Of a stretch of DNA of 64,000 bases, positions 28,969 to 59,034 are shown in pieces; within the stretch, counting starts at the first letter, position 1; each line of letters starts with the position of its first letter. Position numbers and translations under genes: made by a program. The notes beneath the pieces were generated by a model that had not been told where the DNA came from, did no database searches, and saw only the letters and a list, made by a program, of their open reading frames with translations. The stretch comes from Faecalibacterium longum CLA-AA-H243 (lineage in GTDB: Bacteria > Bacillota > Clostridia > Oscillospirales > Ruminococcaceae), in NCBI RefSeq assembly GCF_020687245.1, contig NZ_JAJEQG010000004.1:1-64000 (forward strand), read 5' to 3'.

Positions 28969-29652
28969 ATGCGAATTTTAGTAGTCGAGGATGATCGACT
29001 TTTGAATAATACTTTATGCTATAACTTGAATACTGCGGGCTATGCGGTTGATTCTGCACTGACAAAATCAGCGGCCAGTAGTTTCTTGACGAAGCAGGAC
29101 TATGACCTGATTGTGCTGGATGTAAATTTGCCGGACGGGAACGGTTTTGACTTCTGTCGGGAGGTAAAAGAACGCCGCCCCGATACCGCTATTATTTTTC
29201 TGACCGCAAATGATATGGAAAGCGATATGCTCAAAGGGTATGAACTGGGCGCAGAGGATTATGTGACAAAGCCTTTCCCTATGAGCGTCTTTCAAAAGAA
29301 ACTGGCGGTGGTGCTGGGGCGGCTGACAAAACAATATGGTGGTGATACTTATGAGGATGGCACACTGACCATCAATTTTTCAGAGATGAGTGCTGCCCTG
29401 TCAGGAAAGCCACTTACATTCACCCCACTGGAATATCGACTTTTGAAAATCCTGATGAAAAATCCACAGATCGTTTTGACGCGGCAAGTCTTGTTGGAAA
29501 AACTGTGGGACGCAGACGGAAATTTTGTGGATGAACACGCTCTGACTGCGGCTATCAGCCGGGTACGAAACAAAATCGAAACACCCGACCGTCAGTACAT
29601 CAAAACGGTATATGGTATGGGCTATATGTGGATCGGAGGGGCGCTGAAATGA
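28969..29652 (+). CDS. OmpR/PhoB-type response regulator
   Basis: This is 227 residues from the ATG at 28969, with GAAGGAG upstream. The receiver domain has the acidic pair (VVEDDR), phospho-acceptor Asp51 (IVLDVNLPDG) and Lys101 (DYVTKPF). The winged-helix DNA-binding domain contains LTFTPLEYRLLKILMKNPQI and ISRVRNKIETPDRQYIKTVY. It is the best candidate for binding the GTGA direct repeats upstream of its own operon, the ABC operon and the ICE regulatory module. It overlaps the kinase start by four bases. Confidence 0.92.
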   Translation: MRILVVEDDRLLNNTLCYNLNTAGYAVDSALTKSAASSFLTKQDYDLIVLDVNLPDGNGFDFCREVKERRPDTAIIFLTANDMESDMLKGYELGAEDYVTKPFPMSVFQKKLAVVLGRLTKQYGGDTYEDGTLTINFSEMSAALSGKPLTFTPLEYRLLKILMKNPQIVLTRQVLLEKLWDADGNFVDEHALTAAISRVRNKIETPDRQYIKTVYGMGYMWIGGALK

Positions 29653-39336: not shown

Positions 39337-40067
39337 TTCGTCTCCTCCGCAGGTTCCAGAGGCTTTGCGTCTTCTTCTATCATCCGATAGCCGACGCCAA
39401 GCTCGTTGAGGATATAAGTATTGCTGCCCGGGCGGCTGCCCAGCTTTTTGCGGATATTGGCCATATTCACCTGCAGCTTCTTGGTGCTGCTGGCGTCCGT
39501 GTCGCCCCAGATGGCCCGGACGATGGCCGCATAGGTCATCACGCGCCCGGCGTGCTCGGACAGGAAAGCCACGATGTTGTATTCCGTCTGGGTCAGGCGC
39601 ACCTCCTGCCCGTCCACGAACACCTTGCGGCGCTCGTAGTTGATGGTGAGGCCCTGTGCGCTGAACACCCCGCCGGGCAGACTCCCGCCGCCATAGCGGT
39701 TCACCCGCAGCGCAGCCCGCACCCGGGCCAGCAGCTCACCGGTGCCGAAGGGCTTGGTGATATAGTCGTTGGCACCGAGGTCGAGGGCCTCGATCTTATC
39801 CTGCTCGGTGGTGCGTGCCGACAGGACGATGATGGGAGTCAGATACTTCTGCCGAATGGAGCGGATCGCGTCCAGACCGTCCCGGTCGGGCAGGCCGAGG
39901 TCCAGGATGACGAGGTCCGGGTTATAGGAGATGAACATGGTCATGCCCATCACGCAGGTCTGGGCTACCAGCGCCTGATAGCCGTTGGTCTCCAGCAGGG
40001 TCTGGATGAAGCTGCAGATGTTCGCCTCATCCTCGATGATAAGTACCTTGAATTTATTATTGCTCAT
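39333..40067 (-). CDS. KdpE-like response regulator
   Basis: This is 244 residues. The receiver has IIEDEANICSF, phospho-acceptor Asp56 (VILDLGLPDRDGLD) and NDYITKPFGTGELLARVRAA. The C-terminal winged helix includes VRLTQTEYNIVAFLSEHAGR and LQVNMANIRKKLGSRPGSNT. The sequence is KdpE-like, but no kdpFABC potassium pump is present nearby. It overlaps the kinase by 11 bases and the transporter by 4. It may control that transporter. Confidence 0.88.
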   Translation of the reverse strand: MSNNKFKVLIIEDEANICSFIQTLLETNGYQALVAQTCVMGMTMFISYNPDLVILDLGLPDRDGLDAIRSIRQKYLTPIIVLSARTTEQDKIEALDLGANDYITKPFGTGELLARVRAALRVNRYGGGSLPGGVFSAQGLTINYERRKVFVDGQEVRLTQTEYNIVAFLSEHAGRVMTYAAIVRAIWGDTDASSTKKLQVNMANIRKKLGSRPGSNTYILNELGVGYRMIEEDAKPLEPAEETK

Positions 40068-45462: not shown

Positions 45463-46800
45463 TCAGAAGTGGATGACGCCGAGGATCAGACCAGCGACGA
45501 GGCAGACGATGGAAACACCCCACTGCCAGCCGAAGCAGTACTTGATGTGGTCCTTGATCTCGACACCGGCCAGACCGATGCCCAGATAGGTAGCGGGAGC
45601 CACCGGGCTGATGAAGGTAGCGCAGTTGCGGCAGACGACCATTGCGATGGCGATGTGAGCCGGGTTGACGCCGAACTGGTTGCCAACGCTGACCAGAACG
45701 GGCAGCAGGCCGTAGAAGTAGGAGTCGGTATCGAACAGCAGAGCCAGAGGCACACTCAGGATGCCGATGATGATGGGCAGGAAACGGCCCAGAGAGGTCG
45801 GGATGAAGCTTGCCATGACGACTGCCATCTTCTCCATGATGCCGCTCTTGCTCAGGACACCGAGGAAGACACCGGCGCACAGGATGGTGGAAGCCATGCT
45901 CAGGCCAGCGGAAGCGTGGCTCTTGATGATGGAGCTGTGCAGCTTCTTGCCGCGGTAGTTGACCAGAATGCCCAGAGCGCAGCCGACCATGAAGACGTAG
46001 TAAGAGGGGAAGATGTCCAGAACCAGCACGATGATGACGGCCAGAGTCAGGATGACGTTGAAGATGAAGTTCTGGGGACGAGCCAGAGCCTCATCCTTCT
46101 TGCCGTCGTCGGAGTCGTCGTACTTGCCGGCGTCCTCAGCAACGATGGCATCGCCGAGCTTTGCGATGCGCTTCTTCTCCTGCAGGCCCCAGAAGATGGC
46201 GGTGCCGACAGCCAGCACCAGGCCGACGATCTGCATGGGCATGAGCTGGAACCACAGGTCGTTGGGTTCCATCTCGATGACGCTTGCAGCGCGCATGGTG
46301 GGGCCGCCCCAGGGCATTAGGTTCATGACGCCCATTGCGGTGACGCAGATGAGCAGCAGGGTCTCACGGCGCATGTGCAGGCGCTTGTAGACGGGCAGCA
46401 TGGCGGGGATGGTGATGAGGAAGGTGGAAGCGCCGCCGCCGTCCAGATGGCCGATGATGGCGATGAGGCAGGTCATCAGAGCAACGCCGACGACGTTGTT
46501 GCCGACCTTCTTCATCAGCGCACCGATGATCTTGTCGAACATGCCTGCATCGGTCATGACGCCGAAGAACAGGACGGAGAAGATGAACAGGACAGCCGTA
46601 CCGTGGACGCCCTTGACGCCCTCCTTGATAAAGCCAGCCATTTCATCCAGGGTGAAAGCACCGGTAGCCACCAGAATGGCTGCGGTGATGGTCGAGACGC
46701 TGACGAATGCCAGTGCAGGGACCGTGACATTGCGCAGCAGCAGGACGATGACCGCAATCACCGTTGCAAAGCCGAGCAGAGCGAGGATCGTATCACTCAT
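45463..46800 (-). CDS. CitMHS-family citrate transporter
   Basis: This is 445 residues with about twelve membrane segments. MPWGGPTMRAASVIEMEPND, SPVAPATYLGIGLAGVEIKD and GHLDGGGASTFLITIPAMLP are typical of CitMHS proteins, which import citrate as a metal complex with protons. The substrate is inferred from family and from citDEF 3.4 kb away. Its promoter shares a 17-bp motif and spacing with the citDEF promoter. The hybrid kinase gene lies immediately upstream on the same strand. Confidence 0.88.
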   Translation of the reverse strand: MSDTILALLGFATVIAVIVLLLRNVTVPALAFVSVSTITAAILVATGAFTLDEMAGFIKEGVKGVHGTAVLFIFSVLFFGVMTDAGMFDKIIGALMKKVGNNVVGVALMTCLIAIIGHLDGGGASTFLITIPAMLPVYKRLHMRRETLLLICVTAMGVMNLMPWGGPTMRAASVIEMEPNDLWFQLMPMQIVGLVLAVGTAIFWGLQEKKRIAKLGDAIVAEDAGKYDDSDDGKKDEALARPQNFIFNVILTLAVIIVLVLDIFPSYYVFMVGCALGILVNYRGKKLHSSIIKSHASAGLSMASTILCAGVFLGVLSKSGIMEKMAVVMASFIPTSLGRFLPIIIGILSVPLALLFDTDSYFYGLLPVLVSVGNQFGVNPAHIAIAMVVCRNCATFISPVAPATYLGIGLAGVEIKDHIKYCFGWQWGVSIVCLVAGLILGVIHF

Positions 46801-46885: not shown

Positions 46886-46962
46886 AGTATACAGACTCAA
46901 ACTTACAGCCCAAAGCCCTTCTCGTTACGGTTTGTTAAGAAATTCCTTAATATCCTGTAAGA
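46886..46962 (-). promoter_or_regulatory. citrate transporter promoter with shared operator
   Basis: On the minus strand the -10 TATACT (46891-46886) is preceded by TGTAAG (46907-46902) with 10 bases between. Further upstream TCTTACAGGATATTAAG (46962-46946) matches the citDEF site at 14 of 17 positions. A palindrome TTAAGAAATTCCTTAA lies at 46935-46950. Confidence 0.6.
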
Positions 46963-46999
46963 TTGTGTATGGAAGGTTGGATACAATAGAGTGCAACAC

Positions 47000-47027
47000 A
47001 AAAGGCGTCCTTTCGGACGCCTTTTGC
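47000..47027. terminator. bidirectional terminator after the sensor kinase
   Basis: AAAAGGCGTCC (47000-47010) pairs with GGACGCCTTTT (47015-47025). It ends the kinase gene on the minus strand. Confidence 0.85.
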
Positions 47028-47032
47028 GTTGT

Positions 47033-49186
47033 TTATTCTTTCCGGCTGTTCCGTATCTGGGCCAGCAGCGTAGACGCCGACACCGGTTTTACCACATAGC
47101 CGTCGATGACGCCGTGGCTGCGGGCGTCCACGATCTCCCTTGTGGGGGCATTGGTCATCACGATGCGGGTCATGCCCGGGTAGCGGCCCCGGATTGCCAT
47201 GCAGAAATCCACGCCGCTGCTGCTCATCAGGCTCTCGTCGATGGCAAGGACGTCGAAGGGCTGCTGCTCCAGCAGCTGGCGCAGCTCGCCCCGGCGGGAG
47301 CAGGTGGACACGCTCAGGCCCAGCGCACTGAGGTCTTTGTCCAGCAGGTCGAGGACCTTGTTGTTGTCGTCCGCCGCAAGAATGCGCAGCTTGCTGTCCA
47401 CGCCCCACTGCAGCTGTTCGCGCTCCTGCTGCTGTTCCAGCACTGGCAGATAGACATAGAAGGTCGTGCCTCTGCCGATGGTGCTCTCCGCCCGGATACG
47501 GCCCCGGTGGGTGCGGATGATCTGGTCAGCCAGGGCAAGGCCGAGGCCGGTGCCTTCGCCGGTCTTCTTTGTGGTGAAGAAGGGCTCGAAGATGTGCTGC
47601 ATCGTCTCCTTGTCCATGCCGCAGCCGGTGTCGGTGACGCTCAGGCAGACGTAGCTCGACCATTCCTCGGAAATCTTCTCTTCCGGGAAGAGCGCCGCCA
47701 GCTCACTGCGCGGCACGACACTGCCCCGGATGGTCAGCTTTCCGCCCTCGGTGCCGATGGCGTGGATGGCGTTGATGCTGATGTTCAGCAGCACCTGCTG
47801 CAGCTGGGTCGCATTGCCCAGAACGCATTCGCCGCTGAGCTCATTTTCTTCCTTCAGCTCCACGTTCTTCGGGCAGTTCGTCTCCACCAGCTTCCGGGTT
47901 CGATGGAGCAGTCCCTCCACCGACACGGCGTCGTAGACCGTCTCCACGTTTTTCCGGTTCATGGAGGAAATTTGTTTCACGACCTCCTGTGCCTTCTGCG
48001 CTGCCTCGCTGATCTCCATCGCGTTGTCATAGATCTCGCTGCCCGGGTCGGCGTCGGCCATAATGAGGTCGGCATAGCCGGTGATGGGGGTCAGGAAGTT
48101 ATTGAACTCATGGGCGATGCCGCCGGTGAGGGTCCCCATCATCTGCAGCCGCTGGCCGTGGGCCAGCGACTCTTCGCTGCGGTGGAGCTCTTCGAGGGTC
48201 TGGTTCAGGGTCTTCAGATTGCTGATCTCGGTCGCGCTGCGGCGGTCACGCTCCTGCAGCCGGAACATCTGGAACATGAAGAGCACCAGCACCAGCGCCA
48301 CGCCGCCGAAGATGAGGACCACCTTCACGAAGCTCTGCTGTACCGGCTCGTAGAAATCGTCGTAGTCCACCACGGCGCTGACGATCCAGAAGCTACCCCC
48401 CACGTCCAGATGACGAAAGGCGCTTATCTTATGCACCCGGGGCAGATCCGGGTCGGCCCACCAGTAGGAGTAGTAGTCCAGTGTGCCGAATTCCTCTTTC
48501 TGCTGAGCGCGCAGCAGCTCACTCAGACTGCTCATGTCCAGTTCCTTCCCCTGATAGATGCGCTGGCGGCCCTCCACGACTTTGATGCCCCACTGAACGG
48601 CTTCGGGGTGCATGACCACAAGGTTATCGTCATTCTTTATCATGATGTAGCCGTTCCTGCCGACATGGATCTCCGAGATGAGCTGCTGATACATGACCGT
48701 GGAGTCCACCACGAGGCAGGCTGTCTCATTCCCGACCTTCTTCTTCATCACAAGATAGTGCTCGCCGCCGCTGTGGTACTGCCAGTAGGAGATGTCCTCC
48801 GTCCGGGTGATGAGGACATCGCAGACGGCGCTGAGGCCGTAGCAGCTGTAGATGACCTCGCCGCTGCTGTTTTCCAGCCAGACGTCCCGGATGGTATCGC
48901 TCCGGGCCACCGTGGGGCGGAACGCTTTGCTGGCCTCCGCTTTTCCGGCGATGGAGTCCAGCCGGTCGGCGTATTCTTCCAGCAGAACGCGGATGCTGTC
49001 GGCGGTGCTCTGCACCACCAGCTCCATCTGCTGGGTCTGGCTGTCCATCATGGCGGTGCGGTAGTCCTTCCACACCATACCCACCACGACAGCCAGTGCG
49101 GCTACCGTGACGACGCCGATGGCCAGCGGCGCCCACAGGGTGCGCAGCGTCTGGAACCATGTCTTTTTCGGGGCGTTCTCCTTCAT
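47033..49186 (-). CDS. hybrid sensor histidine kinase with C-terminal receiver
   Basis: This is 717 residues. A membrane helix (about 19-41), an extracytoplasmic Cache-like sensor (about 42-285) and a second helix (about 290-312) are followed by a coiled coil. The H-box is LTGGIAHEFNNFLTPITGYA (His near 365), the N box is LLNISINAIHAIG, and EPFFTTKKTGEGTGLGLALA marks the ATP site. A C-terminal receiver has LAIDESLMSSSGVDF and VVKPV. It probably senses an external ligand, perhaps citrate by context, and signals to the divergent regulator. This is not the usual CitA architecture. Confidence 0.9.
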   Translation of the reverse strand: MKENAPKKTWFQTLRTLWAPLAIGVVTVAALAVVVGMVWKDYRTAMMDSQTQQMELVVQSTADSIRVLLEEYADRLDSIAGKAEASKAFRPTVARSDTIRDVWLENSSGEVIYSCYGLSAVCDVLITRTEDISYWQYHSGGEHYLVMKKKVGNETACLVVDSTVMYQQLISEIHVGRNGYIMIKNDDNLVVMHPEAVQWGIKVVEGRQRIYQGKELDMSSLSELLRAQQKEEFGTLDYYSYWWADPDLPRVHKISAFRHLDVGGSFWIVSAVVDYDDFYEPVQQSFVKVVLIFGGVALVLVLFMFQMFRLQERDRRSATEISNLKTLNQTLEELHRSEESLAHGQRLQMMGTLTGGIAHEFNNFLTPITGYADLIMADADPGSEIYDNAMEISEAAQKAQEVVKQISSMNRKNVETVYDAVSVEGLLHRTRKLVETNCPKNVELKEENELSGECVLGNATQLQQVLLNISINAIHAIGTEGGKLTIRGSVVPRSELAALFPEEKISEEWSSYVCLSVTDTGCGMDKETMQHIFEPFFTTKKTGEGTGLGLALADQIIRTHRGRIRAESTIGRGTTFYVYLPVLEQQQEREQLQWGVDSKLRILAADDNNKVLDLLDKDLSALGLSVSTCSRRGELRQLLEQQPFDVLAIDESLMSSSGVDFCMAIRGRYPGMTRIVMTNAPTREIVDARSHGVIDGYVVKPVSASTLLAQIRNSRKE

Positions 49187-49294
49187 ATCGAGTCCTCCTT
49201 TGGGGCGGTCTTGCTCTTCCTGTCTAAAAATGTTATAATTTTATTTATCATAATTGAAACAAATTTTCCGGTCAGAAAAGTGCAGGGAGTTATC

Positions 49295-49987
49295 ATGTCG
49301 TATCATGTTCTTATTGTAGACGACGATCCAGCAATTTGCAAACTTTTATCGAAAGTTATGATAAGCAATGAGATGGACCCTCTCGTCGTCAACAGCGGCG
49401 CGGCGGCGCTGGACCTCATCGCGCGGCAGAGCAGCACGCTGGATATGATCCTGATGGACATCACGCTGGGCGACATGGAGGGATTCGATGTCATCCAGAC
49501 CATCCGGCGCAACGGCGTCACTACACCGGTCATCATCATCAGCGGCCGCAACGAGGACTACGATTTCATGTACGGCCTCTCGCTGGGCGCCGACGACTAT
49601 GTCACCAAGCCCTTCCGTCCCCAGATTCTGGGCGCAAAGGTCAAGGCCCTCATCCGCCGCAGCAAGAGCTTCTCGCAGGAGAACAACCAGCAGATCAGCT
49701 GCGGGCCTTTCCTCTGCGACACCACCACCATGCGCTTTTATAAAAACAATGTAGAGCTGAACCTCTCCGAGAAAGAGCGCAGCCTGCTGCTGCTCTTCGT
49801 GCGCCACCCGCAGCAGGTGTTCACCAAGGACATGATCTACGAGCAGATATGGGGCAACCTCATCGCTGTGGACGACAACGCCATCATGGTCTACATCAAC
49901 CGCCTGCGCAGCAAGATCGAGGACAACGCCCGCACGCCCCAGCACATCATCACCATCCGCGGCGTCGGCTATCGGTTCGTGCCGTAA
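49295..49987 (+). CDS. OmpR-type response regulator, divergent from the hybrid kinase
   Basis: This is 230 residues from the ATG at 49295 (GCAGGGAG upstream). The long open frame upstream belongs to the antisense of the kinase and is not coding. The receiver has VDDDPAICK, MDITLGDMEGF with the phospho-Asp, and DYVTKPFRPQILGAKVKALI. The winged helix includes LSEKERSLLLLFVRHPQQVF and VDDNAIMVYINRLRSKIEDN. It is the likely partner of the hybrid kinase and the candidate activator of the citrate promoters. A strong terminator follows. Confidence 0.9.
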   Translation: MSYHVLIVDDDPAICKLLSKVMISNEMDPLVVNSGAAALDLIARQSSTLDMILMDITLGDMEGFDVIQTIRRNGVTTPVIIISGRNEDYDFMYGLSLGADDYVTKPFRPQILGAKVKALIRRSKSFSQENNQQISCGPFLCDTTTMRFYKNNVELNLSEKERSLLLLFVRHPQQVFTKDMIYEQIWGNLIAVDDNAIMVYINRLRSKIEDNARTPQHIITIRGVGYRFVP

Positions 49988-50016
49988 ATAAGCGTTTCGC
50001 TTCCCCACAACAAAAG

Positions 50017-50057
50017 AAGGTCCGCTTCCTGCGCGCGGTGCAGGGAGCGGACCTTTG
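50017..50057 (+). terminator. terminator of the response regulator gene
   Basis: AAGGTCCGCT (50017-50026) pairs with AGCGGACCTT (50046-50055), with an inner TCCTGC/GCAGGG stem. Confidence 0.8.
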
Positions 50058-50103
50058 GTTTTATGCCGGTATAAAACACAAAACCTTGAAAAAGGAGAAT
50101 CGC

Positions 50104-50250
50104 ATGAAGTTTGTGTGCATATTTAGCCGCAAAAGCGGGGGTGAGAAGAGCGAAGGAATCTCCGTGAATCCATTCCGAAGCGTGGTTGGCAAGCCACATT
50201 CCCGCTTTTACGCTATATCACTCAATCTTCGCGGAAAGAGAAAGGCTTGA
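50104..50250 (+). CDS. possible 48-residue protein overlapping the citF 3' end
   Basis: The ATG at 50104 follows AAAAGGAGAATCGC, an excellent ribosome site. The frame gives MKFVCIFSRKSGGEKSEGIS and ends in a basic tail, antisense to the last 29 bases of citF. The same DNA can fold: AAAAGCGGG (50131-50139) pairs with CCCGCTTTT (50201-50209) around smaller stems, so it may instead be a structured RNA or a citF terminator. Low confidence as a protein. Confidence 0.3.
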   Translation: MKFVCIFSRKSGGEKSEGISVNPFRSVVGKPHSRFYAISLNLRGKRKA

Positions 50251-51790
50251 CTTCGCGGACGACGTCCATGACAGTGCCGTCGCGGGCCTCGATGATGCCC
50301 ACGATGCGGTCACCGAACTGGACCTTCTCAGGCTCGCCGACGATGGAGTAGGCGATGTCGCGCAGCTCCTCGATGGTCTTCAGAGGCACGCAGTCAGCGT
50401 CCTGCAGGGCCTTCAGCAGGTCAGGACGCTTGGGGTTGACGGCCACGCCGTAGTCGGTAACGACGATGTCTACGCTCTCGCCCGGGGTAGTGACGGTGGT
50501 CACGTCGGTGCAGATGGCCGGGATGCGGCCCTGCAGCAGAGGAGCGATGACGATGGTGCACTTTGCACCCTGTGCGGTATCGGGATGGCCGCCCTGTGCG
50601 CCGGTGATGATGCCATCGGAGCCGACGACGACGTTGCAGTTGAAGTGGGTATCCACTTCCAGAGAGGCCAGGATGACGTAATCCAGCTTGTTGACGAAAG
50701 CGCCCTTGTTCATCGGGCTTGCGTACTCGCCAGCAGAGATGGGGAAGTGGTTGGGGTTGGAAGTGACGTTGTTGACAGCGTCCAGGTCGAAGTCCTGCGT
50801 ATCGACCAGCTTGCGGGCCAGACCGCGGTCAAGCAGCTCGCACATGGGCTTGGTCAGACCACCGACGCCCAGACCCATATGGATGTTCTTCTCCTCCATG
50901 ATCTTGCTCAGGGAGATGGTGGAGGCGATGGATGCGCCGCCGACACCGGTCTGATAAGAGAAGCCGTCCTTGAAGTAGGGGGTGTTTGCAACGACCTGAG
51001 TGCAGTACTCTGCCATCAGGATCTTGCGCTGGTCGGTAGTGGGCTTTGCAGCGCCGGTAGCGATCTTCTCGGGGATGCCGATCTGGTCCACGACGCAGAC
51101 GTAATCCACCTTGGTCTGGTTGATCTCTGCGGGGTAGTTGGGGTAGTCCACGAGGCAATCGGTGACAGCGACGACATAGTCAGCCATCTCAGCGTCCACG
51201 TAAGCATAGCTCAGGACACCGCAGTTGGTCTTGCCGCCCATACCGGAGCAGTTGCCGTACTCGTCGCAGGAGGGTGCGCCGATGAAGGCGATGTCCACAT
51301 GGGTCTCGCCGGTCTCAATGGCGCGGACACGGCCGCCGTGGCTGCGCATGGTAGCCAGACCCTTCAGCTTGCCGTGGGAGATGGCATCGCCGATCTTGCC
51401 GCGGACGCCGGAGGACTCGATGTTGACGATGGTGCCGTCCTCGATCATGGGGACGAGGGCGTCATGAGCCTTGCCCAGAGAGCTTGCGCTCAGGGTGATG
51501 TTCTTGAAGCCCATCTTGTGGATCTCTTCCATGACCATGCAAACCACGAGGTCGCCCTCGCGGAAGTGGTGGTGGAAGGAGACGGTCATGCCGTCGTGGG
51601 CATTGCACTTGACGAGGGCCTCGTGGATGTCCTTGACCATCTTGTCGTGGTCATTGCGCATCACGGGAGTGACCTTCGGGCTGGCCTTCTGGAAAGCCTT
51701 GCCGTCTTTATAATTGTTGCCCTGGAAGACCTCTTTGCCGGTGCGCTCGAGGATCTCTTCGGGAATTTCTCTGCCGACTGCGTTCAACAT
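50222..51790 (-). CDS. citF: citrate lyase alpha subunit (citrate:acetyl-ACP transferase)
   Basis: This is 522 residues. It follows citE with a two-base gap and aligns with CitF throughout: ALVKCNAHDGMTVSFHHHFR, SSGVRGKIGDAISHGKLKGL, FIGAPSCDEYGNCSGMGGKT, SAGEYASPMNKGAFVNKLDY and GAQGGHPDTAQGAKCTIVIA. The alpha subunit moves citrate onto the acyl-carrier protein CitD, releasing acetate. With CitE, citrate is split to oxaloacetate and acetate, the entry step of anaerobic citrate use. No CitC, CitX or CitG maturation gene is in the window. Confidence 0.95.
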   Translation of the reverse strand: MLNAVGREIPEEILERTGKEVFQGNNYKDGKAFQKASPKVTPVMRNDHDKMVKDIHEALVKCNAHDGMTVSFHHHFREGDLVVCMVMEEIHKMGFKNITLSASSLGKAHDALVPMIEDGTIVNIESSGVRGKIGDAISHGKLKGLATMRSHGGRVRAIETGETHVDIAFIGAPSCDEYGNCSGMGGKTNCGVLSYAYVDAEMADYVVAVTDCLVDYPNYPAEINQTKVDYVCVVDQIGIPEKIATGAAKPTTDQRKILMAEYCTQVVANTPYFKDGFSYQTGVGGASIASTISLSKIMEEKNIHMGLGVGGLTKPMCELLDRGLARKLVDTQDFDLDAVNNVTSNPNHFPISAGEYASPMNKGAFVNKLDYVILASLEVDTHFNCNVVVGSDGIITGAQGGHPDTAQGAKCTIVIAPLLQGRIPAICTDVTTVTTPGESVDIVVTDYGVAVNPKRPDLLKALQDADCVPLKTIEELRDIAYSIVGEPEKVQFGDRIVGIIEARDGTVMDVVREVKPFSFRED

Positions 51791-51792
51791 AA

Positions 51793-52695
51793 TTACAAAT
51801 CCCCCTTATACACGCCGGATGCCTTTGCCAGATCGATGGTGCGCTTTGCACCGTCGTAGAAGGCGATGTCGATCATCTTGCCGTCAACGGTGAAGACGCC
51901 GATGCCCAGTGCCTTCTTGGAGTCGATCTCCTTGACGACCTTCTCAGCGAAGATGATGTCCTTCTGGGTGGGAGTAAAGATCTCGTGGACGATGGGGATC
52001 TGACGGGGGTTGATGATGGACTTGCCGTCAAAGCCCATCAGGTGGATGTTCTCGACGTCCTTGCGGAAGCCGTCCATATCCTTCAGGTCGGTGAAGACGG
52101 TGTCGAAGCACTGCACGCCTGCTGCGCGGGCTGCAATGATCATCTGCTGGCGGGCACCCATCAGCTCAATGCCGGTGCCGGTGATGTGGGTCTGCAGGTC
52201 CTTGGTGTAGTCGCCGCCGGACAGTGCGATGCCGAACAGGCGCTCATCGCTCTCGCAGATCTCCAGAGCGTTCATGACGCCGCGGGCAGACTCCAGAGCG
52301 GCGATGATGAGGACTTCGCCCTCAGGACGGCCATAGGTCTTCTCGTCCTCGGCGATGGCAGCAGCCACGCGGTGGACATCCTCGGCGTGCTCGGTCTTGG
52401 GGATGCGGATGGAATCGCAGCCGCCGGCCACGCAGGCACGGATGTCTTCACGCCAGTAGGGAGTGTCCAGACCGTTGATACGGACGACCCGCTCTGCGCC
52501 GCGGTAATCCACGGTCTTCAGGGCGTGATACAGGCTGAAACGGGCGACATCCTTCTGGTTCTCGGCGACAGCGTCCTCCAGGTCCAGCATCAGGGAGTCA
52601 GCCTTATAGATGTAAGGGTCCTTGATGAGGCCGGGCTTCTGCGCATTCAGGAACATCATCGTGCGGCGCAGGCGCTTCTTGTTCGGATTATTCAT
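51793..52695 (-). CDS. citE: citrate lyase beta subunit (citryl-ACP lyase)
   Basis: This is 300 residues from the ATG at 52695, overlapping the citD stop by four bases and preceded by GGGGAGGTG. It belongs to the HpcH/HpaI aldolase family, with KADSLMLDLEDAVAENQKD, VVRINGLDTPYWREDI, IAALESARGVMNALEI and FDGKSIINPRQIPIVHEIF. It cleaves citryl-ACP to oxaloacetate and acetyl-ACP using Mg2+. The citDEF order and tight coupling match classic citrate lyase operons. Confidence 0.95.
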   Translation of the reverse strand: MNNPNKKRLRRTMMFLNAQKPGLIKDPYIYKADSLMLDLEDAVAENQKDVARFSLYHALKTVDYRGAERVVRINGLDTPYWREDIRACVAGGCDSIRIPKTEHAEDVHRVAAAIAEDEKTYGRPEGEVLIIAALESARGVMNALEICESDERLFGIALSGGDYTKDLQTHITGTGIELMGARQQMIIAARAAGVQCFDTVFTDLKDMDGFRKDVENIHLMGFDGKSIINPRQIPIVHEIFTPTQKDIIFAEKVVKEIDSKKALGIGVFTVDGKMIDIAFYDGAKRTIDLAKASGVYKGDL

Positions 52696-52991
52696 CGAAT
52701 GGCACCTCCCCAAGGCAGATTCTCATACTGGTCAACAGAGCGGAACACCGCGCCCTCGATGCGGGCCTTCAGGGTACAGTCCAGTGCGCCCTTGTCCACG
52801 ATGGTGATGCGGACGTTGTCGATGTCCAGATTCTTCAGGGTCTCCAGTGCGACCTTGCGCAGCTGGTTGCCGTACTGATGGATGACGGAGCTTTCGAGGG
52901 AGAAATCGATCTTACCCTCACCCGGCTCGACGGTCACCATGCAGTCGCTGGATTCCAGAGTGCCAGCCGTGGCTGCTTTCTTGATCTCCAT
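52692..52991 (-). CDS. citD: citrate lyase acyl-carrier protein (gamma subunit)
   Basis: This is 99 residues from the ATG at 52991 (AAGGAGG upstream). MEIKKAATAGTLESSDCMVT contains the serine (Ser14) that carries the phosphoribosyl-dephospho-CoA arm, and VRITIVDKGALDCTLKARIE is conserved in CitD. Loading of the arm needs CitG and CitX, which are not encoded nearby. First gene of citDEF, about 90-140 bases downstream of a promoter that shares elements with the citrate transporter promoter. Confidence 0.94.
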   Translation of the reverse strand: MEIKKAATAGTLESSDCMVTVEPGEGKIDFSLESSVIHQYGNQLRKVALETLKNLDIDNVRITIVDKGALDCTLKARIEGAVFRSVDQYENLPWGGAIR

Positions 52992-53078
52992 GCTTTTTTC
53001 CTCCTTGGCAGGTGGTTTCTTCAATCGTTATACCGTACTTGCGGGGCAGCGCCTCACTGCGCCGCTCCTGATGGTTCT

Positions 53079-53134
53079 ATCATAATCGGACAATCTTACA
53101 AAAGGCATAGCGTCAGTCTTAATATTCGTTAAGA
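53079..53134 (-). promoter_or_regulatory. citDEF promoter with shared operator
   Basis: On the minus strand the -10 TATGAT (53084-53079) is preceded by TGTAAG (53100-53095) with 10 bases between, as in the citrate transporter promoter. Further upstream TCTTAACGAATATTAAG (53134-53118) matches the other site at 14 of 17 positions. Confidence 0.62.
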
Positions 53135-53178: not shown

Positions 53179-53255
53179 CATAGTTTCCGAGCCACCACAA
53201 TGCCGATCCACCGTTCCCCGGTTTCGGAGAGCAGCAGACCGACTCTGAAACTATG
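53179..53255. repeat. long-range inverted repeat between citDEF and the hydratase
   Basis: CATAGTTTC (53179-53187) and GAAACTATG (53247-53255) are perfect inverted copies 59 bases apart. The 334-base interval 52992-53325 holds this, the citDEF promoter and the hydratase terminator, but no gene. Confidence 0.5.
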
Positions 53256-53300
53256 ATACCTTAAGACCAGACGTTTGTAAAATCGTCAGATCCAATCTTG

Positions 53301-58071: not shown

Positions 58072-59034
58072 ATGGATCTCCGCGAACTATACTATCTGAA
58101 CGCCCTTGCCGAAGAGCAAAGCATCTCGAAAGCCGCCGAGCGGCTGTACATCGCGCAGGCCAGCCTGAGCCAATTCCTGCGCCAGTTCGAGGCGCAGCTT
58201 GGCTCCCCCATCTTCGTGCGCACCAACAAGGGTATCCGCCCCACCCCTTCCGGCAAGGTTTTTCTGAGTCACGCTAAGCACATCTTAAAAGAGTACCAGC
58301 AGGCCCAGCAGGAGTTCTGGGACAACGAGAACACCGTCGGCGGCACCGTGTTCTTCGGGGTCAGCTCCTTCCGCGGCAGCTATGTCATCCCGCCCATCCT
58401 GAAAAAATTCTACGACCAGAACCCTCGGGCTACCATCAACATCTACGAGGGCAACAGCATGAATCTGGTGGAGAAGATCCGGGAGGGCGAGCTGGACCTT
58501 GCGCTCTCCGCCTACCCCATCGTCAGCACCGAGGGCATCCAGATGGAATACCTCTACCGGGACGAGGTGCTGCTGGTCGCCACCAAAGACCACCCGATCT
58601 TACAGCAGGCCCACATGGACGAGACCGGGCGGCTCCGCGTCTCGATGGAGGAAGTCACCCGCCATGAGTGCATCCTCAGCGGCAAGGATACCATGCTGGG
58701 TCACCTGATCCGAAGTGCGTTCGAAGCCTACGGCCTGCGACTGAAATCGAAGCACGACAACATCACCGCCGCATTTGCCGCATCCATGGCACGGGTTGGC
58801 CTTGCTCTGGCTTTCACCTACCGCTCCTGCATCGTCGAAGAGCCGGATGTCGTCTATCTCTCGCTGGGATCGCAGGGGCTTTACCTCCGGCTGGCCCTGC
58901 TCTCCCCCACCACCGACTACCGCTCCAAGGCGACGCTGGCCCTGACCAAGCTGCTCCGCGAAGAGCTGAGTGGCAAAAACGCAGATAAAAAGACACCCTC
59001 GCCGTCCAATCAGATCAACGAAGGTGCCCTGTAA
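58072..59034 (+). CDS. LysR-family transcriptional regulator
   Basis: This is 320 residues from the ATG at 58072 (TTGGAGGAATTGTC upstream). The helix-turn-helix is at the N-terminus: QSISKAAERLYIAQASLSQF, LRQFEAQLGSPIFVRTNKG. The effector domain (about 90-300) has VFFGVSSFRGSYVIPPILKK and REGELDLALSAYP. It likely activates the divergent DUF6282-MatC-hydratase genes in response to a pathway intermediate. The C-terminal tail is charged. Confidence 0.9.
   Translation: MDLRELYYLNALAEEQSISKAAERLYIAQASLSQFLRQFEAQLGSPIFVRTNKGIRPTPSGKVFLSHAKHILKEYQQAQQEFWDNENTVGGTVFFGVSSFRGSYVIPPILKKFYDQNPRATINIYEGNSMNLVEKIREGELDLALSAYPIVSTEGIQMEYLYRDEVLLVATKDHPILQQAHMDETGRLRVSMEEVTRHECILSGKDTMLGHLIRSAFEAYGLRLKSKHDNITAAFAASMARVGLALAFTYRSCIVEEPDVVYLSLGSQGLYLRLALLSPTTDYRSKATLALTKLLREELSGKNADKKTPSPSNQINEGAL

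Follow-up and report, generated by a model that had tools for sequence, protein, structure and literature searches.

The promoters of a CitMHS citrate transporter gene and of the citrate lyase operon citDEF share an inverted repeat, CTTAM-N6-KTAAG, followed at a fixed distance by a KTAAG half-site that lies 10 nt before a -10-like hexamer. Both promoters are on the minus strand of a 64,000-nt stretch from Faecalibacterium longum CLA-AA-H243 (contig NZ_JAJEQG010000004.1; hereafter the window), and genes for a hybrid sensor kinase and an OmpR/PhoB-type response regulator lie between them. Judging from comparative sequence analysis, the shared site is very probably how one sensor system controls citrate uptake and splitting. 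We consider it probable that this citrate two-component system, acting through its OmpR-type regulator, activates the transporter and the lyase from phased operators. The comparison strongly supports a candidate operator for a little-studied citrate two-component system, one that would be ordinary in kind and new in detail. Citrate is both a dietary and a host metabolite in the gut. Searches limited to open-licence papers showed no citrate lyase regulator for Faecalibacterium, nor an operator of this system for Lachnospiraceae. If the reading is correct, a simple sequence rule would predict which gut anaerobes switch on citrate use, and would name the regulator.

Architecture of the two promoters

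A preliminary description of positions 46,886-53,134 had noted a 17-bp motif upstream of both operons, matching at 14 positions, and a TGTAAG element exactly 10 bases before the -10. Both features were present. The minus-strand 17-mers (TCTTACAGGATATTAAG, 46946-46962, and TCTTAACGAATATTAAG, 53118-53134) were identical at 14/17 positions. TGTAAG preceded the -10-like hexamer by exactly 10 nt in the CitMHS promoter (46902-46907, ahead of TATACT at 46886-46891) and in the citD promoter (53095-53100, ahead of TATGAT at 53079-53084).

The transporter promoter contains two tandem inverted repeats at a 22-bp pitch, and the lyase promoter contains one. The distal CitMHS repeat (CTTACAGGATATTAAG, 46946-46961) corresponds to the 17-mer minus its first T. 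The proximal repeat (CTTAACAAACCGTAAC, 46924-46939), located 22 bp downstream, has one mismatch to CTTAM-N6-KTAAG and is the positional equivalent of the single citD repeat (CTTAACGAATATTAAG, 53118-53133): its CTTAA lies 33 bp before GTAAG, and that of citD 34 bp before. Measured from start to start, the 17-mer and TGTAAG are 55 bp apart at CitMHS and 34 bp apart at citD. The preliminary description had given 44 and 23, values that hold for the motif's TTAAG half; its figure of 21 for the difference was correct. Its interpretation as one site shifted by two helical turns did not hold. The upstream CitMHS repeat had been paired with that of citD because the nearer CitMHS repeat is slightly degraded and was overlooked by eye. 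The half-sites at 0, 11, 22, 33, and 55 do fall on roughly one face of the helix, as had been claimed, albeit not for the reason given, a moved site. A CitMHS at least 91% identical was present in 3/31 same-genus genomes, all three of which kept the tandem pair with an identical distal repeat.

A separate sigma-70-like match, TTTACA-17-TATCAT with CTTAAG in its spacer, was observed about 260 bp upstream of citD (53253-53281, minus strand); it is possibly a second, basal promoter.

Form and rarity of the motif

A search without a preset motif (expectation-maximisation) returned tCTTAAcaAatTgTAA from 46 CitMHS promoters and CTTAAtaAaTwTTAAG from 35 citD promoters. The log-likelihoods were 388 and 294, respectively, versus 53 and 51 in shuffled sequence, the control being a single mononucleotide shuffle for each set and width, searched from fewer starts than the real sequences. 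Since both promoter sets yielded the same repeat unprompted, the 17-mer is one form of the inverted repeat CTTAM-N6-KTAAG, in which the half-sites are 11 bp apart.

Both TCTTANNNNATATTAAG and the composite pattern CTTAM-N6-KTAAN-N16..18-KTAAG occurred twice in the 2.96-Mb genome, in each case only at the CitMHS and citD promoters, and the reversed controls gave 0 matches. A paralogous CitMHS elsewhere in this genome (35% identical) had no match to the pattern nearby. The exact 17-mer was rejected as a family-wide marker, as it was found in 6/148 family genomes, its own included, versus 18 for the reversed control. By these counts the conserved feature is the general inverted repeat, not the exact 17-mer. 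A looser pattern applied across the class matched at 29 places in 24/391 genomes (reversed control, 2 genomes). It was not used for co-occurrence because it mixes citrate sites with sites of modules resembling BceRS; at 1e-70, the regulator itself was detected in only 2/391 genomes of this sample.

Conservation and spacing across regulator loci

Scanning a collection of species genomes with the regulator yielded at least 79 loci. The regulators are mostly 56-73% identical to that of the window, with 98% identity in F. prausnitzii APC923/61-1 (L014). Among 75 loci (L014-L088), the gene order CitMHS - kinase - regulator - citF was found in 34, a count that leaves out the rearranged L041; another 21 have CitMHS - kinase - regulator but no citF at that end. 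At least one strict site was present in 61/75. The upstream sets comprised 61 CitMHS and 46 citD promoters, and removal of redundancy by shared 8-mers left 46 and 35. They omit same-genus duplicates (L001-L005, L007), alignments starting after residue 8 and short flanks. Two paralogous CitMHS genes (L014:14162, L024:15653) stay in and are scored as misses.

For the spacing analysis, KTAAG-N10-TANNNT served as the anchor, and the repeat was sought over all upstream offsets between 17 and 79 bp. The anchor was present in 40/46 CitMHS and 28/35 citD promoters. In the 40 anchored CitMHS promoters, repeats with at most one mismatch occurred only at offsets 33 (33 promoters), 34 (2), and 55 (28); where several anchors existed, in this or the citD set, the one with the best repeat at 33/34 was taken, which favours those two offsets and not 55. 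The remaining five had a two-mismatch repeat at 33. In the 28 anchored citD promoters, such repeats occurred only at 33 (14) and 34 (13), all 27 without a mismatch. The motif search upstream of orthologous genes that the preliminary description had proposed thus located the repeat at 33/34 in 40/46 CitMHS promoters (35 with at most one mismatch, five with two) and in 27/35 citD promoters. The spacers between the elements have low information and are little conserved, and fixed spacing across little-conserved spacers is not what ordinary sequence similarity would produce.

These data bear on two alternatives. The first is that two AT-rich promoters resemble each other by chance or inheritance, without function. 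The elements are indeed short and AT-rich, and the operons are neighbours. Against this stand the two matches in 2.96 Mb with zero control matches, the strict spacing across little-conserved spacers among regulators mostly 56-73% identical, and the presence of the site before non-homologous transporters as well; we regard this explanation as extremely unlikely. The second is that the regulator binds head to tail to KTAAG boxes on one strand at a 22-bp pitch, the CTTAA halves being secondary. KTAAG does recur at 11, 33, and 55 on one strand, and the C. difficile regulator RR_1586 is described as binding direct TTAAG repeats at an 11-bp pitch (PMC6222199). However, CTTAA, the left half, shows about the same conservation as the right one, and the pitch here is 22, not 11, which makes head-to-tail binding unlikely.

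Lone full sites were also observed by the regulator 3' end at two loci in which citDEF is not adjacent (L069:10886 and L085:10773, both minus strand). They resemble remnants of a citD promoter that has moved or been lost.

Co-occurrence of the site and the regulator gene

The loci above had been fetched by means of the regulator. Co-occurrence was therefore assessed in 299 Lachnospiraceae genomes chosen independently of it, except for the centre genome G418. The strict site was found in 7 genomes, the regulator (E<=1e-70) in 8, and both in 6 (Fisher p=2e-10). Of the eight sites, five are upstream of citD and three upstream of a CitMHS-family gene, and in the seventh site-bearing genome (G783) a 48% identical regulator adjoins the site. 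citD was present in 32/299 genomes. Taking one citD each from 30 of these 32 (G667 and G736 not included; further citD matches in G418, G594, G598, and G670 left out), we found the site upstream of citD in 6/8 regulator-bearing versus 2/22 other genomes (p=0.001). In two genomes without the regulator, a citD 81-82% identical had no site. Four genomes were exceptions (G808, G727, G670, and G786), and each was inspected. G670 has a truncated regulator within the same cluster; its loss, like that of the regulator in G786 described below, is possibly a recent deletion or an assembly fault. At this G670 locus (L186), regulator residues 111-230 abut kinase residue 207.

Across these genome samples, the site follows the response regulator gene. 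The preliminary description had named the regulator at 49295-49987 as the candidate activator, and this tracking in independently sampled genomes makes it the likely binder. A different regulator might bind the repeat, such as the LysR-type protein encoded at 58072-59034 beside the hydratase operon. Its gene lies within the window, CTTAA-N6-TTAAG is palindromic, and LysR sites often are. Yet a close homologue (>=150 bits) occurs in only 3/75 loci of L014-L088 (L015, L064, L087) versus a strict site in 61/75, a count that covers close homologues while weaker LysR-type genes also occur in some loci, and where genomes were sampled independently, the sites go with the response regulator. LysR was accordingly set aside as a very unlikely binder.

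Proposed mechanism and direction of control

In the mechanism that we propose, the sensor kinase would perceive external citrate or a related tricarboxylate and phosphorylate the OmpR-type regulator, either directly or via the kinase's own receiver. Regulator dimers would then bind each CTTAM-N6-KTAAG repeat, and an additional protomer or dimer would contact the KTAAG located 33-34 bp downstream and 10 bp before the -10. This contact may stand in for a poor -35 and recruit RNA polymerase.

A scan of the region for sigma-70 promoters gave six matches, and neither the CitMHS nor the citD promoter was among them; both -10-like hexamers lie outside every match. Compared with TTGACA, the -35 position agreed at a mean of 2.9/6 versus 2.6 in shuffles. 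Activators of the PhoB type leave 10 bp between their site and the -10. The lack of a sigma-70 match, the poor -35, and the position of the site in the promoter together point to activation as more likely than repression. Repression of both operons by the same regulator, in the absence of citrate or when unphosphorylated, appears quite unlikely: KTAAG stands at a fixed 10 nt from the -10 in the anchored promoters (40/46 CitMHS, 28/35 citD), which fits the geometry of PhoB-type activators, and promoters that are not among the sigma-70 matches leave little to block. Nevertheless, a protein bound at the promoter-proximal half-site, which falls between the -35 and -10 positions, could also block polymerase, and RR_1586, which binds TTAAG repeats, is reported to have lowered reporter expression (PMC6222199).

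Several observations weigh against the proposed activation from conserved operators. The strict site was absent from 14/75 regulator loci; in some of these, the contig stops short or has no citrate genes. In the Treponema loci L073 and L074, the repeats before CitMHS are not accompanied by KTAAG at 33; L030 and L053 have only degenerate forms; the CitMHS half-site of L021 is degenerate; and the CitMHS promoter of L072 has an 11-nt gap. The citD of L025 lacks the half-site and that of L056 lacks the site. The co-occurrence argument draws on the Lachnospiraceae genome samples. Within them, G808 and G727 have the regulator and an unlinked citD, on another contig, without the site; in both, the site is at the regulator-linked operon instead. 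G786 has the site, but between its shortened citF and CitMHS both regulator and kinase are absent (L185). Among more distant regulators, that of L082 (46% identical) has a site before an FMN/FAD flavoprotein gene (Pfam), not a citrate gene, and the loci L078 and L079 (53%) lack the strict site, with no citrate genes found nearby by tblastn. OmpR-type regulators bind as dimers, often on direct repeats, whereas the conserved sites here are inverted repeats plus one KTAAG. Finally, the TTAAG-binding RR_1586 is described as rejecting inverted repeats (PMC6222199).

Genes of the citrate cluster

The cluster is summarised by its profile matches. CitMHS, a citrate:proton symporter and the first proposed target (45463-46800, minus strand), scored 281.3 bits on TIGR00784 (cut-off 259.7). 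In the hybrid sensor kinase (47033-49186, minus strand), HATPase and a C-terminal receiver (D650) exceeded their cut-offs, and dCache and HisKA (H359) fell below theirs; in L108, where the neighbouring regulator is a more distant one, the kinase passed both the dCache and HisKA cut-offs. The response regulator, the proposed binder (49295-49987, plus strand), matched PF00072 (88.5 bits) and the winged helix Trans_reg_C (PF00486, 88.0 bits), both above cut-off, with D55 at the expected place. We take VDDNAIMVYINRLR to be its recognition helix, as assigned by analogy with PhoB.

On the minus strand follow citF (citrate lyase alpha, 50222-51790; TIGR01584 over cut-off), citE (beta, 51793-52695; TIGR01588 350.9 bits, below the cut-off of 443.4), and citD (acyl carrier, 52692-52991; TIGR01608 over cut-off), the last being the first gene of citDEF and the second proposed target. 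The ATG starts of citE and citD were picked by eye. No HPt domain was detected in the ten neighbouring proteins scanned, to which the search was limited, though the kinase is a hybrid; its receiver (D650) possibly acts in a phosphorelay or as a phosphate sink.

The adjoining segment 53326-59034 encodes a hydratase (PRK11413), MatC and a DUF6282 protein with a divergent LysR, and resembles a second organic-acid module. Homologues of it lie close to the citrate cluster in L064, L087 and, in part, L015. Two more OmpR-type response regulators, about 28% identical, are encoded in the window (28972-29634, plus strand; 39378-40052, minus strand).

Deeper relatives and possible exchange of the transporter

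In a midpoint-rooted tree of 44 rows, regulators 41-54% identical fell into one clade with the citrate regulators (support 100/99, 26 rows). The window and L014 regulators are outside this tree and are represented by orthologues with at most 73% identity. Among the close regulators, the recognition helix hardly varies. In the deeper loci, the site precedes kinase - citC - citD - citE - citF (L150, L151), kinase and citEF (L152), a CitMHS-family gene (L153), or kinase - CitMHS (L154). Other transporters are also preceded by the site: TctC-TctB-TctA, with the lyase genes after it, in L077 (Spirochaetaceae), a 2HCT carrier in L045, and, in L036 plus four relatives, a CitMHS-family gene with 32% identity.

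These arrangements raise the speculative possibility that citrate fermentation across gut Bacillota and Spirochaetota is under one operator code, read by a single OmpR-type clade, and that this code persisted as the transporter was swapped (CitMHS, distant CitMHS, 2HCT, TctCBA). With the extra tandem repeat, uptake might then switch on sooner than the lyase operon, or at a lower citrate level, and side branches such as L082 may have moved to other organic acids. The L082 site (L082:877, minus strand) has a spacing of 32, and its flavoprotein, perhaps of the fumarate-reductase type as judged by eye, hints at another organic-acid signal.

Comparison with known systems

The CitAB two-component system of C. 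glutamicum lies beside a citrate transporter and is described as controlling tctCBA and a transporter of the CitMHS family. Its regulator CitB carries a CitB-type output domain, its kinase CitA is of the HPK5 type, and the Klebsiella CitAB is named in the same account (PMC3353115). Likewise, the two-component genes of the window adjoin a citrate transporter. Candidate operators lie at the transporter and lyase operons and track the regulator. In contrast, the output domain of the window regulator is Trans_reg_C (PF00486), the test for a CitB-type output domain was negative, and a C-terminal receiver makes the kinase a hybrid. Pseudomonas TctD, an OmpR/PhoB-subfamily regulator, is reported to activate a tricarboxylate uptake gene on citrate (PMC4513871). 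The window regulator differs in scoring 119 bits on NF012023 versus a cut-off of 337, and in that its proposed targets include citDEF. Clostridium indolis DSM 755 has the same citrate gene set together with a putative two-component system that its authors liken to citrate regulatory systems, in an account whose available text reports no operator, motif, promoter, or test of regulation (PMC4149025).

RR_1586/CD1688 of C. difficile, also of the OmpR type, recognises the half-site TTAAG; it is described as binding direct repeats (DRTTAAGNWWW twice) at an 11-bp pitch, and inverted ones little or not at all, with targets in sporulation and transport (PMC6222199; PMC9380558). It shares the OmpR type with the window regulator, and the TTAAG half-site and 11-bp pitch with the window sites, but these are inverted repeats.

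A similar layout emerged from the search across the class Clostridia: downstream of kinase genes, it returned CTTACA-N4-TGTAAG-like repeats that have GTAAG at +33, standing 10 bp ahead of the -10. In nine regions of this kind (L141-L149), the order of the open reading frames indicates a regulator, a kinase, and an ABC transporter; Pfam testing of the ABC ATPase covered four of them (L147, identical to L115; L142; L144; L148). In B. subtilis, the BceR site consists of an inverted-repeat main site and a downstream half-site at a fixed distance. As in the window, these BceRS-like loci have GTAAG 10 bp before the -10 at an offset of 33, and they too combine an inverted-repeat main site with a downstream half-site. 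The published consensus for BceR/PsdR-type regulators of antimicrobial-peptide modules, AnnTTACnAnnnnGTnAG (PMC10858260), is in the same register as the window site; its reading as an inverted repeat is ours. The recognition helices are alike as well, VDDNTLAVY(V/I)SRLR in the BceRS-like regulators against that of the window regulator. Differences are found in the site core, TTAA in the window instead of TTACA, and in the associated genes, which are citrate genes instead of an ABC transporter. Seven BceR-like rows of the tree formed their own branch (97/84), apart from the 26 citrate-type rows, and no partner ABC transporter was found among the ten neighbouring window proteins scanned; on the separate clade and the missing transporter, membership of the window regulator in the BceR family was rejected. 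Operators of the BceR type may be predictable from sequence across the class. If our reading of the citrate promoters is correct, the layout of an inverted repeat plus a half-site, found in the same class next to BceRS-like modules, would serve a metabolic regulator of a different clade.

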